A stretch of DNA of 61,091 nt from an uncultured Lachnospiraceae bacterium. Lineage in GTDB: Bacteria > Bacillota > Clostridia > Lachnospirales > Lachnospiraceae. The notes below the pieces were generated by a model, which did no database searches, was not told the DNA's origin, and saw nothing but the letters and a program-made list of their open reading frames with translations. Below, one piece after another: positions 13,752 through 21,738 of this stretch. The stretch spans positions 1 to 61,091 of the forward strand of contig CACZIO010000008.1 of assembly GCA_902781215.1 (NCBI GenBank). Direction: 5' to 3'. The stretch's first letter is position 1. Every line of letters begins with the position of its first letter. The position numbers and the translations under genes are program-made.

Positions 13752-15023
13752 TCATTTCTTTGTGACGCCGTCGCCGTAGATGGTGGTCCAGTCGTTCTTC
13801 ATGGAGACCGGAACCCATCCGTACTCTTCGCAGAGGCCAAACATTTTGTCCGCCTTCTCGACATTGCCGTTCTCGCGCTCGGTATCGTCGCAGCAGAGCA
13901 TGAAGGCCATGGCGCGGAAGGGGTTGTTGTTGATGACGTACTCGGCCATGCTGGAGTCGCCTGTGCTGTTGCCGAAGGAAAGGACGGGCTGCTGACCGAT
14001 CTCCTTGGCAATGACGGCGACCTTGTTCATCTTGAGGTTCTTGACGACGAAATCGCCGCCGAGGACCAGCTCGTCGTCCTCGTCAAAGACATAGTCCAGG
14101 CCGTCGGTTTCGCCCTGGTTCCTGGTCACGACGGTCTCGTCAGACCCGATGATCTGACGGGGCGGGAGCTTGAGTGGGGAGTCCTGGATGATGCCGCGGA
14201 CGATGAAGCGGTCCGTGCCGCTGACGACGTAGACGGTGAAGCCGTTGGCCTGCAGGTAATCGACGATCTGCAGCATGGGCAGATAGTAGCCGCCGCCGCG
14301 GGTCATTCCCTCGTAGGAGGGCATAGCCTCTTTCTTGAACTCCTGTATGTAGCTGCTGAACTCATCGATGGTCATGCCGGAGAAAGAGGAGGCGATGCAT
14401 TTTCCGTGGTCCACCTCCAGTCCCTCAAAGGACTCGCCGGTCTCATTCTGCTTCACGATCTTCTCGGCGGTCTCGCGCTCGAAGTCGCTGGCCTGGTCTT
14501 TGTAGTCGGGATCCTCCAGCACGCGGTGGACGAGCAGGCAGTAGTCAAAATAGTTGGGGTCTGTCTCGCAGAAGAGGGTTCCGTCGAAGTCAAATACCGC
14601 GATGCGGCAGTCCTCGGGGATGTAGTCCGCGCTGTCCTCGCGCGTGATGGCGTCCATGTACTCGACCAGCTGCTTCTTGGCCTCGGCGTCAGAGGTCCAC
14701 AGAGAGAGCATGTCGTCGCCATCCACGACCGCAGCATCAGTTGTCACTGCTGCATCAGTTGTCACTGCCGCAGTCGTCGCTGCCGTTGCAGCGGTGTCAG
14801 CTTCCGCCGCTTCTTCTTTTTTCTCAGCCGCAGCGTCGTCCTGCTCAGGTGCCGCAGCATCATCCTGTTCGGATGCTGCATCCTCCTGATTGGCTGTTGT
14901 CTCCTGTGCCTTGTCATCCGCCTTTGCGGCTGGAGCGGCGCTGCCGCCGCAGCCCGCCAGGGCGACTGCCAGGATCAGCGCCCAGAGGGCCGCTGCGCTT
15001 TTCCATTTCATTTTCTTTTTCAT
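13752..15023 (-). CDS. Secreted HAD-family phosphatase lipoprotein
   Basis: A 423-residue protein. MKKKMKWK plus a hydrophobic stretch ends in the lipobox LAGC (Cys ~25), so it is lipid-anchored outside the membrane. A low-complexity Ala/Asp/Glu/Thr/Val linker (~residues 28-105) follows. The HAD core has motif I AVFDFDGTLFCETDPN, motif II VVSGTDRFIV and the acidic motif SFGNSTGDSSM. A phosphoserine-phosphatase-like monoester hydrolase is likely; the substrate is unknown. The start at 15023 has AGAGAGG upstream and gives a proper signal peptide. Two GGGACG hairpins follow the stop. Confidence 0.8.
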   Translation of the reverse strand: MKKKMKWKSAAALWALILAVALAGCGGSAAPAAKADDKAQETTANQEDAASEQDDAAAPEQDDAAAEKKEEAAEADTAATAATTAAVTTDAAVTTDAAVVDGDDMLSLWTSDAEAKKQLVEYMDAITREDSADYIPEDCRIAVFDFDGTLFCETDPNYFDYCLLVHRVLEDPDYKDQASDFERETAEKIVKQNETGESFEGLEVDHGKCIASSFSGMTIDEFSSYIQEFKKEAMPSYEGMTRGGGYYLPMLQIVDYLQANGFTVYVVSGTDRFIVRGIIQDSPLKLPPRQIIGSDETVVTRNQGETDGLDYVFDEDDELVLGGDFVVKNLKMNKVAVIAKEIGQQPVLSFGNSTGDSSMAEYVINNNPFRAMAFMLCCDDTERENGNVEKADKMFGLCEEYGWVPVSMKNDWTTIYGDGVTKK

Positions 15024-15134
15024 AATGTTCCTCTCTTTTAGTAATGTTATGCTGCTGTCATATATTTGCCCATAGGTAAGAGCCCGCATACATGTATGAT
15101 TATAACACTATCTGCCGGTAATGGCGCGCGCTTT

Positions 15135-18100
15135 TCACTCGTCTGTCCCGATCCCGTAGCGCTCGCGCAGCTCCCGCTCCGTGAAGATGATCTCCTCCAG
15201 GAGCATCTGGGCGGACATGCGGTAGGCGCCGGCGCCGAAGATGATGATCTGCTCGACGGCGTCGGAGGTCGCGACGGTGACCTTGTACTTTTTGGACACG
15301 AGGGTGTGGGCGGTCTTCTCGATATAGAGGTCGGCCGTCTCCGCCTCCCTGGTGAAGACGACGTCGATGTTGTGCCAGCGAAGGACCTCGCGGGGGCCGC
15401 CGGCCACCTTGTAGGCGTCGAAGACCAGGATGACCTTCTCAAGCCTGTAGCCGGCAAAGTTGGACAGGATGTCCATCAGCTTGTCGCGGGCGGACTTGAT
15501 GTCCCGCAGGGCCAGCTCCCGCAGGTCGTCCCAGGCAAAAATGATGTTGTAGCCGTCGACCAGCAGGTAGTGGTCCTGCGGCGTCTGGCTCTTTTTCACG
15601 CGGGCGCCGGCGGTGCCGCCTGCTGCGCCTGCCCCGTCGGGATTTTCCAGCCCCCAGGGGTCTGAGGAGGCCTTCTTTTTCTTCACGCCGCTTTCGGCGG
15701 CTGCATAGCTGTCAAAAAGGTCGCTCCCGGCACCGGCGCGGGGTTTGACGGGGCCGTAGGTCCGCTCGAAGATCTGCATGAGCTCCTTCTCCGCGGCAAA
15801 AACGGCCTGCTGGCGCCGCTTGAAGGCGTCGTCCTGCTTCCGGCCGCCCGCAGAGCCCTGTGCTCCGCTGCCGCCGGCGCCCTGTCCCGGATTTCTGCCG
15901 TTTCCAACGCCGGCAGGGCCGCTCCCGCGGCTGCCTGAGAGGGGCTGACCGTTTCCGGCGGCGCCCGTTGGATCATCTACGGTCCAGTCGGTCGGCTCGG
16001 GCAGGATCCCCTGCTCCAGGAGGCGCTTTTTCTTCTCCCGCTCCTCCGCGGCTTTACGGGCGCGCTCCGCGGCGAGATCGAGTGACTCGTCCGCGGTCAT
16101 GGCAGGGGCCTCCTCGGGGAAACGCCAGCCTGTGTCTACGTGCATGAAGCTCCGCACCTCGTACCAGGGGATGATAGTGCCCGCGCCGTGGGAACAGAAG
16201 ACGGAGGAGGAGGGGTTGCGCACATCCAGCTCCGGGTCATAGCCGGAGGCAGCGATGACAGCCTCCGCGTTTTTGCAGGGGACATAGCCGTGCAGGGTGC
16301 ATTGCAGGGATCCCGCGCCCCGGGTATAGGCGGCGACCTCCTCGACATAGTTGCCCAGGGCCGCGACCGTGACCGTGCCGCGCAGGATGACGTTTCCGCT
16401 GCTGCCGGGAGCTGCGCTTCCGGCACCGTACCCGGCGCCCGCACCGGCTCCGCCGCCAGGACCCGCACTGCCCGCGGGACTGCCGGCAAACTCCGGCTGT
16501 CCGAAGGAGGCGTCCATCTGCTGCAGGTCCGCCATGGCGCGGCCCACGTTCTCTTGCGGAAGTTCCAGCACAAAGTCATAGGCGGGCTCCAGGAGGACGG
16601 ACTGTGTCATCATGAGGCCCTGGCGGACCGCCCGGTAGGTCGCCTTGCGGAAGTCGCCGCCCTCGGTGTGCTTGGCATGGGCCCGGCCGCCGATGATACT
16701 GATCTTCATATCGGTGATCTCTGCCCCGGTCAGGACGCCGCGGTGACGCCGCTCCTCCAGGTGGGTCAGGATCAGGCGCTGCCAGTTGAGGGCCAGGTCG
16801 TTGACAGCGCAGCGGCTCTCGAAGACCAGGCCGGACCCCGGTTCCCCGGGCTCCAGAAGGAGATGGACTTCCGCGTAGTGGCGCAGGGGTTCGAAGTGGC
16901 CGACGCCCTCCGCCGCCTCCGCGATGGTCTCTTTATAGATGATGCGGGAGGGTCCGAATTCCACCCGCATGCCGAAGCGGTCCTCGATCATGCGCTGCAG
17001 GATCTCGCGCTGGACCTGGCCCATGACCTGGACTGTGATCTCCTTTTTCTCCTCGTCATAGGAGAGGCGGAGCATGGGATCCTCCTCCTCCAGGGCGCGG
17101 AGCTTGCGGTAGGCCGCGAAGAGGTCCTGGCCGGGCGGCAGGAGCAGGCGGGACTGCATGACCGGCTGCAGCAGGCGCTCGGCCTCCTCCACGCCGGCCT
17201 CCGCGCCCAGGCCCATGCCCGCGCGCGTCCCCGTCAGGCCGGGGACCGCCACGATGATGCCGGCGGGCGCCTCCTGCAGGGCCTCGTATTTTTCTCCCTT
17301 ATAGAAACGGAGCTGGGCCGCCTTCTCGGGCTGGCCCTTTTCATCCGGGCTCTCCGGGATCAGCTGGCGGGGCTGCAGGGCGCCGCCGGTGATCTTCATC
17401 CAGGTCAGCCTGGAACCGCTGCCGCCGGTCCCCCCGGCGCCGGCACTTCCGCCCTCGTAGGTGATCTTGTAGACCCGGGCGCCGAAGGCATCCCCACGGG
17501 CCGGCTCCACGGCCAGCGTATCCAGCATGGCCAGAAGGTCGTCGACTCCCTCCTCGCGAAGGGCCGACCCGAAGCAGACAGGAAAGAGCCTGCGCTTCGC
17601 GGCAAGGGACGCCGCCTGCGCACAGGTAATCTCCTCTCCCTCCAGAAAGCGCTCCATCAGGTCTTCGTCACAGACCGCGATCTCCTCCTGGAGACCGGGG
17701 GAAAAGACGGGAAGTCCAGTCACGCCGGCATAGCCCGGCTCCGGGCTTCCTTTTCCCGCCGCGTTCTTCAGATCCGGCTGAGAGCTCTTCTCTGTCAGGC
17801 CCTTTCGGTCCGGCTGTGTGCCCTGTCCGGTCTGCCCGGCAAAAGCCTCCTGCAGGTCGACGCAGGCAGTCCCCAGTTCCTGACGGATCTGCGCATAGAC
17901 GGCCGCCCGGTCCGCACCGGACTGGTCCATCTTGTTGACAAAAAGGAAGGCCGGGACCCCGTAGTGATCCAGCAGCCGCCAGAGCGTGCGCACCTGGCCC
18001 GTGACCCCGTCCGCCGCGCTGATGATCAGGACCGCGTAGTCCAGGACCTGCAGGACCCGCTCCATCTCCGTGGAGAAATCCGCGTGGCCGGGGGTATCCA

Positions 18101-18419
18101 CCAGGGTCCAGACGCGCGCAGGATCCCCGTCTTCACCAGCTGCATCCTTTGCCTTTTTCCCGCTTCCCTTCCCTGCTGTCTTAGCGAAGCCGCCCCCTGC
18201 CTCCGGTGAGACAGGCGGATATGTCGTAAATGAAGCCTGCTTGGAGAAAATCGTGATCCCGCGCTCGCGCTCCATATTGTCGGTGTCGAGAAACGCGTCC
18301 TTATGATCGACACGGCCCGCGCTCCGGATCGCGCCCGTCCTGTGCAGCAGTGCCTCTGAGAGGGTCGTCTTGCCCGCGTCCACATGGGCCAGAAGCCCCA
18401 GACTGATATATTCTTTCAT
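15135..18419 (-). CDS. TetM-like ribosomal GTPase fused to a Rae1/YacP-like NYN endoribonuclease domain
   Basis: A 1094-residue two-part protein. Residues ~1-790 form an EF-G/TetM-type translational GTPase: G1 AHVDAGKTT, RGIT switch, DTPGHADF, NKMD, then domains II-V. The domain IV loop that in TetM reads YSPVSTPADF is replaced by HAKHTEGGDF, so drug-displacing activity is doubtful. A Gly/Ala/Ser-rich linker (~790-940) follows. The last ~150 residues (YLLVDGYNIIFAWDDL, VFDAYKV, TREAETADLYIEK, ATSDAVEQIIIFGAGAYRMS) match Rae1/YacP, an endonuclease that cuts mRNA in the ribosomal A site in B. subtilis. The fusion suggests a ribosome-rescue or stalling-response factor; this is inference. The start is uncertain by a few codons (18419-18470). 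Confidence 0.85.
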   Translation of the reverse strand: MKEYISLGLLAHVDAGKTTLSEALLHRTGAIRSAGRVDHKDAFLDTDNMERERGITIFSKQASFTTYPPVSPEAGGGFAKTAGKGSGKKAKDAAGEDGDPARVWTLVDTPGHADFSTEMERVLQVLDYAVLIISAADGVTGQVRTLWRLLDHYGVPAFLFVNKMDQSGADRAAVYAQIRQELGTACVDLQEAFAGQTGQGTQPDRKGLTEKSSQPDLKNAAGKGSPEPGYAGVTGLPVFSPGLQEEIAVCDEDLMERFLEGEEITCAQAASLAAKRRLFPVCFGSALREEGVDDLLAMLDTLAVEPARGDAFGARVYKITYEGGSAGAGGTGGSGSRLTWMKITGGALQPRQLIPESPDEKGQPEKAAQLRFYKGEKYEALQEAPAGIIVAVPGLTGTRAGMGLGAEAGVEEAERLLQPVMQSRLLLPPGQDLFAAYRKLRALEEEDPMLRLSYDEEKKEITVQVMGQVQREILQRMIEDRFGMRVEFGPSRIIYKETIAEAAEGVGHFEPLRHYAEVHLLLEPGEPGSGLVFESRCAVNDLALNWQRLILTHLEERRHRGVLTGAEITDMKISIIGGRAHAKHTEGGDFRKATYRAVRQGLMMTQSVLLEPAYDFVLELPQENVGRAMADLQQMDASFGQPEFAGSPAGSAGPGGGAGAGAGYGAGSAAPGSSGNVILRGTVTVAALGNYVEEVAAYTRGAGSLQCTLHGYVPCKNAEAVIAASGYDPELDVRNPSSSVFCSHGAGTIIPWYEVRSFMHVDTGWRFPEEAPAMTADESLDLAAERARKAAEEREKKKRLLEQGILPEPTDWTVDDPTGAAGNGQPLSGSRGSGPAGVGNGRNPGQGAGGSGAQGSAGGRKQDDAFKRRQQAVFAAEKELMQIFERTYGPVKPRAGAGSDLFDSYAAAESGVKKKKASSDPWGLENPDGAGAAGGTAGARVKKSQTPQDHYLLVDGYNIIFAWDDLRELALRDIKSARDKLMDILSNFAGYRLEKVILVFDAYKVAGGPREVLRWHNIDVVFTREAETADLYIEKTAHTLVSKKYKVTVATSDAVEQIIIFGAGAYRMSAQMLLEEIIFTERELRERYGIGTDE

Positions 18420-18700
18420 TGTTTTTCCCATCATTTTAAACGAATCATGCATTGCCATGCGCAAAGACATCCGGCTTTCATTCTACCATGCTTCCGTACA
18501 CCTGTTAACTGCTTCCCCGGTCCGATGTGTGATATTTGACTTGCCGCATTTTCTGTTTTTTTGCACTTTTTTTCTTATTTATTTCCACTCGGAGAAAAAC
18601 TGTGATACTATAGCGGTATTCTGTAGAAATTAGATGTATCTGGTCCGGACATACGACAGGTGGAACAGGTACGAGCAGCTTTGAAAGGAGTTCAGATACG

Positions 18701-19570
18701 ATGAAGGAATATACGCCCGTCAAGGAAGGCAAGGTACGTGAGATCTACGATGTCGGCGACAGCCTGATCATGGTGGCGACAGACCGCATCTCCGCTTTCG
18801 ACGTGATCCTCAAGAACAAGATCACCAAGAAGGGCACCGTCCTGACCCAGATGTCCCGCTTCTGGTTTGACTATACAAAGGACATCCTGCCCAACCACAT
18901 GATCAGCACGGATGTTACCGATATGCCTGAATTCTTCCGCCAGGACCGGTTTGACGGCAACAGCATGATGTGCAAGAAGCTGACCATGCTCCCCATCGAG
19001 TGCATCGTCCGCGGCTACATCACCGGCAGCGGCTGGGAGAGCTACAAGAAGAACGGGACCGTATGCGGCATTCAGCTTCCCGAGGGACTGAAAGAGTGCG
19101 ATCAGCTGCCTGAGCCCATCTACACCCCCAGCACCAAGGCCGAGATCGGCGACCACGACGAGAACATCAGCTTTGAGCAGAGCATCGATGTTCTGGAGAA
19201 GGCCTTCCCCGGCAAGGGACAGGAGTACGCGGAGAAGCTCCGCGACTGCACCATCGCCCTCTACAAGAAGTGCGCCGAGTACGCGCGTACCCGCGGCATC
19301 ATCATCGCCGACACCAAGTTCGAGTTCGGCCTGGACGAGAAGGGCAATGTCGTCCTGGGCGACGAGATGCTGACCCCCGACAGCAGCCGCTTCTGGCCCG
19401 CAGAGGGCTACGAGCCCGGCCACGGCCAGCCCTCCTTCGACAAGCAGTTCGTCCGCGACTGGCTCAAAGCCAATCCCGACAGCGACTACAAGCTTCCCCA
19501 GGATGTCATCGACAAGACCATCGCCAAGTATGAGGAGGCCTACACCCTGCTCACCGGACTGAAGCTGTAA
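18701..19570 (+). CDS. purC: Phosphoribosylaminoimidazole-succinocarboxamide synthase
   Basis: A 289-residue SAICAR synthetase joining CAIR and aspartate with ATP in purine synthesis. Typical motifs: KEGKVREIYDVGDSLIMVATDRISAFD at residues 7-34, IECIVRGYITGSGWESY, GIIIADTKFEFG and LGDEMLTPDSSRFWP. AAAGGAG at 18681-18687 precedes the ATG. It stands alone, not in a pur operon. The 281-bp upstream gap shows no purine riboswitch that I can see, only a weak possible promoter near 18585-18615. Confidence 0.97.
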   Translation: MKEYTPVKEGKVREIYDVGDSLIMVATDRISAFDVILKNKITKKGTVLTQMSRFWFDYTKDILPNHMISTDVTDMPEFFRQDRFDGNSMMCKKLTMLPIECIVRGYITGSGWESYKKNGTVCGIQLPEGLKECDQLPEPIYTPSTKAEIGDHDENISFEQSIDVLEKAFPGKGQEYAEKLRDCTIALYKKCAEYARTRGIIIADTKFEFGLDEKGNVVLGDEMLTPDSSRFWPAEGYEPGHGQPSFDKQFVRDWLKANPDSDYKLPQDVIDKTIAKYEEAYTLLTGLKL

Positions 19571-19846: not shown

Positions 19847-19877
19847 TGAGTCAGGTTAAAACGTCCCCGGTGACTCA
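19847..19877 (-). terminator. GGGACG-core hairpin overlapping the transketolase stop codon
   Basis: On the minus strand, TGAGTCA-CCG-GGGACG-8 nt-TGACTCA. The TGA stop codon (19875-19877) is the first three bases of the 5' arm. Terminator-like position but only a short T tract. Confidence 0.55.
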
Positions 19878-20822
19878 TTCGGCCAGAAATGCCTTTGTCT
19901 CCTTCACGATGGAGTCGGCGTCGAGGCCGAATTCGACCATGAGGTCGGCCATGGGGCCGGAGTAGCCGAAAACGTCCTGGAGGCCGATGCGGCGGACGCG
20001 GGCGGGGTATTTCTCAGCGAGGACGGCGCAGACGGCTTCGCCCAGGCCGCCGATGACGCTGTGTTCTTCGGCGGTGATGATTTTGCCTCCGCATTCCTTC
20101 GCGGCGGCGACGACGGCTTCAGCGTCGATGGGTTTGATGGTGCCCATGTTGAGGACGCGGGCGTGGATGCCTTCCTGTTCGAGCTTCTCGGCTGCCTTGA
20201 GGGCCTCGTAGGTGAGGACGCCGTTGGAGATGATGGCGATGTCATTGCCCTCGTGGAGGACTTCGGCCTTGCCGATCTGGAATTTGTAGGTGGCCTCGTC
20301 GTGGAAGACGGGGATGGCGGCGCGGCCCAGGCGGATGTAGACGGGGCCGTCGTATTCATAGGCGGCGCGGACCATCTGGCGGGCCTCGACGTCATCCGCG
20401 GGGGACATGACGAGCATGCCGGGGATGACGCGCAGGAGGGCGAAATCCTCGCAGCACTGGTGGGAGGCGCCGTCCTCGCCGACGGAGATGCCGCCGTGGG
20501 AGGCGCAGATCTTGACGTTGAGGTGGGGGTAGCCGATGGAGTTGCGGATGACCTCCCAGGCGCGGCCGGACGCGAACATGGCGAAGCTGGACGCGAAGGG
20601 GATGAGGCCCATGGCGGCCATGCCGGCGGCGGTGCCCATGACGTTGCACTCGGCGATGCCGCAGTTGAAGTGGCGGTCGGGGTAGGCCTTTTTGAACATG
20701 CCGGTCTTGGTGGAGCCGGCCAGGTCGGCGTCGATAGCCACGACGCGTTCATCGATGGCGCCGAGTTCGACGAGGGCTTTCCCATAGCTGTCTCTGGTTG
20801 CGATCTTTTTCACTTCTGCCAT
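19875..20822 (-). CDS. Transketolase, C-terminal subunit
   Basis: A 315-residue split-transketolase subunit holding the pyrimidine-binding and C-terminal domains. Key parts: AIDADLAGSTKT, NCGIAECNVMGTAAGMA (catalytic Glu for ThDP activation in the GIAE motif), SHGGISVGEDGASHQCCED and YIRLGRAAIP. It works with the N-terminal subunit encoded 4 nt upstream to move two-carbon units in the pentose phosphate pathway. The order N then C and the tight spacing are typical of Clostridia. Confidence 0.95.
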   Translation of the reverse strand: MAEVKKIATRDSYGKALVELGAIDERVVAIDADLAGSTKTGMFKKAYPDRHFNCGIAECNVMGTAAGMAAMGLIPFASSFAMFASGRAWEVIRNSIGYPHLNVKICASHGGISVGEDGASHQCCEDFALLRVIPGMLVMSPADDVEARQMVRAAYEYDGPVYIRLGRAAIPVFHDEATYKFQIGKAEVLHEGNDIAIISNGVLTYEALKAAEKLEQEGIHARVLNMGTIKPIDAEAVVAAAKECGGKIITAEEHSVIGGLGEAVCAVLAEKYPARVRRIGLQDVFGYSGPMADLMVEFGLDADSIVKETKAFLAE

Positions 20823-20826
20823 GTGT

Positions 20827-21738
20827 TCAGTCCTCCCCTCTCTGGATGCCGGACGGTGTCTCTGCCTTGGGGGAGACGTCTGCTCCCTCCGCCTCGATCA
20901 GTCTGCGGGTCGCCTCAAGTTCCTCGAGAGCCTGGGCGCACTCCGCGTCGTTGGGTCCCTTGCCGTGCCAGGATGCCTGGTTCTCCATGTAGGAGACACC
21001 CAGTCCCTTGACGGTCTGCATGAGGATGGCGGTGGGCTTTCCGGAGCCCTTCACAGCGTGGAAGGCGGCAAAAGCCTTCTCCAGGTCATTGTAGTCGTTG
21101 CCATCGATCTTGACGATGTTGAAGCCGAAGGACGCGAACTTCTCGTCGATGGGCTCCATGTTCATGACGTCCTTGGTGGCGCCGTCGATCTGCAGGCCGT
21201 TGATGTCGACCGCGATACAGAGGTTGTCCAGGCCGTAGTGGGCAGCGTATTCAGATGCCTCCCAGACCAGGCCCTCTTCGATCTCGCCGTCGCCCAGAAG
21301 GGCGTAGACATTGATATCCTTCTTCAGGACATTCTTTGCCGCGTTGGCCATACCGCAGGCTGCGGAATAGCCCTGTCCCAGAGATCCGGTGGAGAAGTCC
21401 ACGCCGGGCGTCGTGTTCATATTGGGATGTCCCTGCAGATAGGATCCGATCTTGCGGATGGTCATCAGGTCTTCCTCCGGGAAAAAGCCCCGCATGGCCA
21501 GGACGGCATAGAGTCCGGGCGCACAGTGGCCCTTGGACAGGACAAAGCGGTCGCGGTTCTCATCTTTGGGATTCTGCGGATCGATCCGCATCTCCTCGTT
21601 ATAGAGGTAAGTCATCAGATCCATGGCGCCCATGCTTCCGCCGGGATGCCCGGACTTGGCGGCGTGTGTCTCCTTAACTATGTACATCCGTCCCTTGTTT
21701 GCGATCAATTTGAGTTCTCTGATTCTCTCGGGTGTCAT
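20827..21738 (-). CDS. Transketolase, N-terminal (ThDP-binding) subunit
   Basis: A 303-residue subunit with the ThDP diphosphate-binding part: KSGHPGGSMGAMDLMTYLY, SKGHCAPGLYAVLA, GSLGQGYSAACGMA, and the metal-binding motif LLGDGEIEEGLVWEASEYA followed by AVDINGLQ. It pairs with the downstream C-terminal subunit. The unfused form replaces the ~650-residue single-chain enzyme. GGAGG lies 11 nt before the ATG. Confidence 0.95.
   Translation of the reverse strand: MTPERIRELKLIANKGRMYIVKETHAAKSGHPGGSMGAMDLMTYLYNEEMRIDPQNPKDENRDRFVLSKGHCAPGLYAVLAMRGFFPEEDLMTIRKIGSYLQGHPNMNTTPGVDFSTGSLGQGYSAACGMANAAKNVLKKDINVYALLGDGEIEEGLVWEASEYAAHYGLDNLCIAVDINGLQIDGATKDVMNMEPIDEKFASFGFNIVKIDGNDYNDLEKAFAAFHAVKGSGKPTAILMQTVKGLGVSYMENQASWHGKGPNDAECAQALEELEATRRLIEAEGADVSPKAETPSGIQRGED

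Follow-up and report, generated by a model that had tools for sequence, protein, structure and literature searches.

The gene described here occupies positions 15135-18419 of the minus strand in a stretch of DNA of 61,091 nucleotides (the window) from an uncultured Lachnospiraceae bacterium (assembly GCA_902781215.1, contig CACZIO010000008.1). It encodes a single chain in which a five-domain EF-G-type GTPase is joined, via a long and flexible linker, to a NYN nuclease domain of the Rae1/YacP type at the C-terminus, and in most of the genomes sampled from the family this fusion stands in for the separate Rae1 nuclease. We propose, at roughly even odds, that the protein serves as a housekeeping, GTPase-guided endonuclease of the Rae1 type, which would cleave mRNA on paused ribosomes. 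The first-pass annotation of this DNA has thus proven partly right: the fusion and its intact active sites were found again, and the protein does not resemble a classic tetracycline-resistance factor, while neither the novelty of the fusion nor the placement of the GTPase in the TetM family has stood. The architecture was already reported in 2015: Atkinson 2015 (BMC Genomics 16:78, PMC4342817) describes Tet proteins that carry a YacP-like NYN domain from ten Clostridiales species and files the fusion under Tet with the suggestion of an RNase-based antibiotic resistance. The window protein belongs with these, as an EF-G/Tet-type GTPase with a C-terminal NYN domain from the Clostridiales; in contrast to the earlier account, its GTPase clade lies apart from TetM and TetW and comprises unfused members, and the fusion occurs in far more genomes. 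What the present sequence comparison adds is the replacement of standalone Rae1, the intact active sites, the non-TetM GTPase clade and the single clade of fusions. No experimental study of the fusion was found in the literature searched by title and beginning of the abstract, a body of texts outside which the primary Rae1 papers lie.

Architecture and conservation of the fusion

The gene comprises 1094 open codons from the ATG at 18419; another in-frame ATG is located upstream at 18470, and the one at 18419 is the start that matches the alignment of relatives. Translation, Pfam and phmmer all confirm that both enzymes are joined in one chain, with all features on the minus strand. The G domain (residues 3-302; 17514-18413; Pfam GTP_EFTU PF00009, 8.2e-49) has its P-loop AHVDAGKTT, DTPGH with the catalytic histidine, and NKMD intact, and the columns of GKTT, DTPGH and NKMD are invariant in 41 aligned sequences. 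Domain II (about residues 313-405, borders approximate; 17205-17483) is indicated by a sub-threshold match to EF-G_D2 PF22042 (0.0092) and by strands in the structural model, and is followed by domain III (439-489; 16953-17105; EFG_III PF14492, 4.8e-8), domain IV (492-604; 16608-16946; EFG_IV PF03764, 5e-16) and the core of domain V (673-718; 16266-16403; EFG_C PF00679, 6.4e-10). Domain IV carries the loop GHFEPLRHYAEV (507-518; 16866-16901), which shows little or no variation among fused proteins, and the tip loop HAKHTEGGDFR (581-591; 16647-16679) at the position of the tetracycline-displacing loop of TetM, in which K583 to F590 (KHTEGGDF) are invariant among the 41 aligned sequences. A motif behind domain V, SVFCSHGAG (739-747; 16179-16205), is strongly conserved in fused and recognisable in unfused members. 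The linker (766-949; 15573-16124) is mostly disordered and contains a conserved motif, ELMQIFERTYGP (878-889; 15753-15788), predicted to be helical. The chain ends with the NYN domain (952-1088; 15156-15566), which matches NYN_YacP PF05991 at 1.5e-44 (152.4 bits versus a gathering score of 24.6). When compared to the PDB by phmmer, the GTPase part is about equally like EF-G, TetO and TetM (1e-52 to 1e-53), and residues 951-1088 match YacP of B. subtilis (5MQ8/5MQ9) at 5e-26.

An AlphaFold2 model based on 41 fused relatives reached a mean predicted local distance difference test score (pLDDT) of 75 and a predicted template modelling score (pTM) of 0.55; the stretches 810-867 and 894-945, with pLDDT below 50, appear disordered and flank a predicted helix at 861-888. 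In a fold search residues 1-727 matched EF-G structures, often at high root-mean-square deviation, which is why the relative arrangement of the domains in the model is not to be trusted. The best 50 rows of each of the two listings were EF-G-type chains, and TetM was absent among those listed.

A search for the same architecture in other genomes, as the annotation had advised, was successful. Scanning of genome contigs confirmed at least 547 relatives, the best 80 of which were kept, and 78 of these 80 have the full architecture in a single frame; left out were one gene cut by a contig end (L015) and one broken into two frames (L031). The fusion is, therefore, no artefact of this assembly, and it is likewise found in genomes that consist of only one contig (e.g., G022, G120, G174 and G191). 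According to their record titles, the relatives belong to the Lachnospiraceae, the Oscillospiraceae and other Clostridia. In a comparison of 79 proteins (the 78 relatives and the window protein) the residues D1001, D1030 and D1053 of the NYN domain were retained in all 79, and D955 in all 41 sequences of the alignment mentioned above; a loss of these acids, which the annotation had named as speaking against its interpretation, is not seen. Counted by hand against 5MQ8/5MQ9, the four residues D955, D1001, D1030 and D1053 align with D7, D53, D81 and D104 of YacP and are presumably the catalytic acids of the NYN site. Since all four are retained, the nuclease is presumed to be functional. Conservation of the linker, in comparison, is of a mixed kind: it is present in every aligned relative, with columns 879, 883, 886, 887 and 889 invariant or at least 90% conserved in the 41 sequences, and its length varies widely, from 66 to 219 residues over the 79 proteins. 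At 1094 residues the window protein exceeds the frames in most genomes of the class (about 850-930 residues), which is in part accounted for by stretches that are gaps in most relatives (e.g., about 69-99 and 646-673). The gene contains Gly/Ala-rich low-complexity insertions, and the local guanine-plus-cytosine content is 0.615-0.674 at window positions 14001-18000, compared to 0.484-0.624 in the other 2-kb blocks.

The acids are common to fused and standalone NYN domains, which differ in surrounding residues (e.g., at F961, Y1003 and A1026). With about 170 residues, B. subtilis Rae1 is a free-standing protein and has all four acids in common with the window protein, in which the domain instead terminates a GTPase chain and lacks the C-terminal LE..R tail. 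The last arginine of this tail occurs in 33 of 33 standalone rows, which include genes fetched twice, as opposed to 13 of 79 fused rows, in which the alignment of the tail is unsure. Should the tail be of help to free Rae1 at the ribosome, its task may have passed to the GTPase. By eye, standalone YacP from the family (L175, L176, L180 and L181) appears nearer to the fused NYN domains (IIF[AS]W, TKEA) than to other standalone proteins.

A GTPase apart from TetM and EF-G

The GTPase had been described as TetM-like. Its best score among the NCBIfam models is indeed that with the Tet protection model NF012153, but 348 bits amount to less than half of the cut-off of 775; over 41 fused members the best E-value with the Tet model was 1.6e-132, and the window's own genome yielded no match above the Tet NCBIfam cut-off. 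The EF-G model TIGR00484 gave 224 bits versus a cut-off of 659.4. At the tip of domain IV the window protein has HAKHTEGGDF in place of YSPVSTPADF in TetM and TetW, which agrees with the earlier statement that the drug-displacing loop is not conserved, and the YHxVDSxExxF tip of EF-G and EF-G2, present in three EF-G rows, is missing as well. In a tree of 43 rows, a subfamily clade of 37 rows (100/99) is set apart from TetM and TetW, the only Tet proteins included, and the three EF-G rows form a separate branch (100/100). TetM and TetO are likewise EF-G-type GTPases of five domains and differ from the window protein in tip loop, clade, curated score and the lack of an added nuclease. TetM-type tetracycline resistance was, thus, rejected as the family on score, tip loop and clade. 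As judged from these comparisons, the GTPase forms a subfamily of its own, neither EF-G nor TetM-type, which is marked by the tip HxKHTEGGDFR and the GHFEPLRHYAEV loop and whose clade includes unfused members of about 650 residues; in the unfused relatives displayed the loop is present with small variations in a few.

In a second tree (102 rows) all 79 fusions form one clade with a support of 100, which also includes a split gene (G423). Both trees are midpoint-rooted, and for both a warning of long branches was given. A single fusion event, followed by rare splitting or loss, would be the simplest history, because the split gene and a long-branched row from Ligilactobacillus salivarius nest among the fusions. 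The split gene (L169, G423:C93:4500-9500) consists of two overlapping frames, a 712-residue GTPase followed by a 214-residue YacP, and may represent a natural split or an assembly error. The L. salivarius copy (L184, 2983-4917) is an unfused member on plasmid pA17A, a megaplasmid of 248 kb; it has a degenerate tip, ASNVHTVGGDF, is annotated as TetM/TetW/TetO/TetS family, and was perhaps transferred with subsequent loss of the nuclease. In another genome (L171, G190) the fused gene is broken into two frames of 288 and 618 codons. Finally, a further EF-G/Tet-type GTPase (L172, plus-strand frame from 822, in G443) lacks the GHFEPLRHYAEV loop, has a third type of tip, HHLEHTHPLDF, and joins TetM and TetW only via a long branch.

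These data also bear on the suggestion of 2015, that is, antibiotic protection of the ribosome with an added RNase step, in which the GTPase would free the A site of the drug, and the mRNA of drug-stalled ribosomes would be removed by the nuclease. We consider this improbable. The top score with the Tet protection model would be in line with it, as would the fact that NCBI labels some members of the subfamily TetM/TetW/TetO/TetS family, and seven short frames of 5-27 codons upstream of the gene leave room for a regulatory leader. However, the score remains far below the cut-off, the tip reads HxKHTEGGDF instead of YSPVSTPADF, the clade is separate from TetM/TetW, and the gene is present in single copy in nearly all genomes sampled; moreover, no terminator-like site was found in 18420-18720 and no clear conserved upstream block among six close relatives. 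By its sequence features, the fusion appears to have less in common with a tetracycline-resistance gene than with a widespread, inherited enzyme of translation quality, which is in accordance with the doubts about classic tetracycline resistance voiced from the start.

Distribution of the fusion and of standalone YacP

Fusions were scored by frame length together with a YacP match in samples of 160 genomes of the family (one per genus), 393 of the class and 249 of the phylum. In the window's own genome (94.67% complete) the single YacP match is the fusion itself. YacP occurs in 147 of the 160 family genomes, and in 134 of these 147 the frame has at least 800 residues (the longer of two frames being used for G420 and G532); thus, most of the family genomes sampled have the fusion instead of standalone Rae1. 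The remaining frames measure 516-690 residues in three genomes and less than 300 in ten, the latter comprising seven of 174-185 residues, the split gene and two ambiguous cases (G467 and G443). Eight of the ten short-frame genomes tried carry the subfamily GTPase, including G423 with its split gene and G471, where it lies in broken pieces; the exceptions are G397, which has none, and G443, with the GTPase of different type. From the 13 family genomes without YacP the subfamily GTPase is missing as well, at an E-value of 1e-50, that is, both parts were lost as a unit.

Across the class, YacP was found in 250 and the GTPase subfamily in 164 of the 393 genomes, and at least 125 genomes were scored as fused, a lower bound, as among the 164 there are 15 without a listed frame and 4 with the gene at a contig edge. 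As read from the tables, the subfamily GTPase is encoded once in each of the 125, and a single YacP match is present in 120 of them. In the phylum sample the GTPase is present in 18 of 249 genomes, 16 of these in frames of at least 857 residues. YacP accompanies the GTPase in 157 of 164 class genomes, compared to 93 of 229 without the GTPase, and this co-occurrence is mostly due to the fusions: when only listed unfused GTPases are considered (G190, the broken fusion, being excluded), YacP occurs in 13 of 19 versus 93 of 229 genomes (odds ratio 3.2, p 0.028, uncorrected for kinship). Each part can act alone, since YacP-only and unfused-GTPase-only genomes both occur, and the link between GTPase and YacP is weak when the two are unfused.

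It might, hence, be asked whether the fusion is one of convenience, in which two independent activities are expressed from a common promoter and kept in roughly the same place, with a translocation-type task for the GTPase and the NYN domain acting like free Rae1. The widely varying linker length would fit, and so would the split gene and the nested unfused L. salivarius member among the fusions, as well as the occurrence of GTPases that are unfused and of YacP proteins that stand alone, frequently in the absence of the respective partner. We nevertheless regard this explanation as rather unlikely: a single clade has been retained in most of the family genera sampled, the linker motif EL..IF.RTYG is conserved in the fusions and absent from the unfused GTPases displayed, and residues of the tail specific to standalone proteins are relaxed in the fusion.

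Possible role at the ribosome and genomic setting

Recognition of stalled ribosomes and cutting of their mRNA is a fair inference by analogy to Rae1, whose best studied representative, that of B. subtilis, destabilises mRNAs in a translation-dependent manner. In the proposed mechanism, a subfamily of translational GTPases would have taken the cell's Rae1/YacP nuclease onto its own C-terminus. The GTPase would bind the factor site of the ribosome, and the tip HxKHTEGGDFR together with the GHFEPLRHYAEV loop would reach the decoding centre of ribosomes with an empty or blocked A site, thereby bringing the tethered NYN domain close. GTP hydrolysis would then release domain IV, the NYN domain would cut the ribosome-held mRNA at or beside the A site, and the cut mRNA would decay and the ribosome be rescued. 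From ribosome binding and choice of target to cleavage and the order of these events, this is what we infer; docking is assumed to precede cutting, as the A site should not accommodate domain IV and a Rae1-type nuclease at once, and the linker appears long enough for a hand-over between the domains. A GTPase-plus-endonuclease machine operates in no-go decay, and the proposed fusion may be likened to it as a bacterial counterpart. More tentatively, and with less than even confidence, the protein might be envisaged as a one-chain, GTP-timed A-site mRNA endonuclease which inspects paused ribosomes, has its own Rae1 domain receive the mRNA, replaces free Rae1 in most sampled Lachnospiraceae genera and belongs to a GTPase subfamily that has so far not been separated from Tet.

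Several findings weigh against a role as a guided Rae1-type nuclease. In all likelihood the A site is used by domain IV of the GTPase as well as by Rae1, so that the two would compete for it, and with a pTM of 0.55 the position of the NYN domain cannot be placed by the model. The fusion is dispensable, as the 13 family genomes without both parts demonstrate. The 93 class genomes with YacP but without the GTPase, together with the presence of the GTPase in only 3 of 15 standalone-YacP genomes tried outside the family, imply that Rae1 needs no such GTPase partner; conversely, YacP is missing from 6 of the 19 genomes in which an unfused GTPase is listed, which implies a nuclease-independent job of the GTPase. 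In addition, with the LE..R tail mostly missing in the fusions, contacts or targets may differ from those of free Rae1.

The target might also be a stable RNA: as a ribosome factor, the GTPase could act in biogenesis, in recycling or in the clearance of subunits, with the NYN domain trimming or destroying rRNA or tRNA rather than mRNA. The NYN domain was first proposed for rRNA and tRNA maturation, and Atkinson 2015 (PMC4342817) names the ability to act as an rRNA RNase as a property to be checked. Some of the gene neighbourhoods are compatible with this idea. In one genome from outside the family (L178) the genes preceding standalone YacP encode Cys-tRNA synthetase, a protein with an RNase III domain, Thy1 and an rRNA methylase of the SpoU type. 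A gene of the RNA uracil-5-methyltransferase type is found close to the fusion both in the window and at 9 other loci. Against this stand the translation-dependent effect of B. subtilis Rae1 on mRNAs, the low frequency of the methyltransferase neighbour (10 of 81 loci) and the different neighbours of standalone YacP in the family genomes L175 and L176. We therefore consider action on rRNA or tRNA unlikely and prefer mRNA on paused ribosomes as the substrate. If this is true, most of the sampled genera of a dominant gut family would deliver the Rae1 nuclease to the ribosome via a dedicated GTPase, and ribosome-coupled mRNA cleavage would be testable in one purified protein. Some genes of gut bacteria now labelled as TetM-type tetracycline resistance would then encode enzymes of translation quality, a point of consequence for resistome counts.

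In the window the gene is situated between a divergent purC and a gene for a HAD-type protein. A promoter-like element, TTAACA-17-TAGAAT with a TG extension (18480-18508, minus strand), about 60 bp upstream of the ATG at 18419, was identified by pattern match only. No conserved operon emerged, as no true neighbour family occurs in more than 15 of the 81 loci, many of which have short flanks; larger neighbour clusters lie inside the fusion gene and were read as shadow frames. Mobile cargo was rejected, as among the listed matches of 1135 plasmid records only 2 cover at least 80% of the query, one of them an Agathobacter record of 252 kb, and many of the listed matches are tet genes; a search with the NYN part had a Monoglobus record of 518 kb among the matches listed. 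Phage defence was likewise dismissed, with 0 families of PADLOC-DB matching at an E-value of 0.01. At 19875-21738 the window encodes a transketolase as two adjacent open reading frames, the N-terminal part followed by the pyrimidine-binding and C-terminal part; the unfused copy of L. salivarius also adjoins a transketolase gene, possibly by chance.

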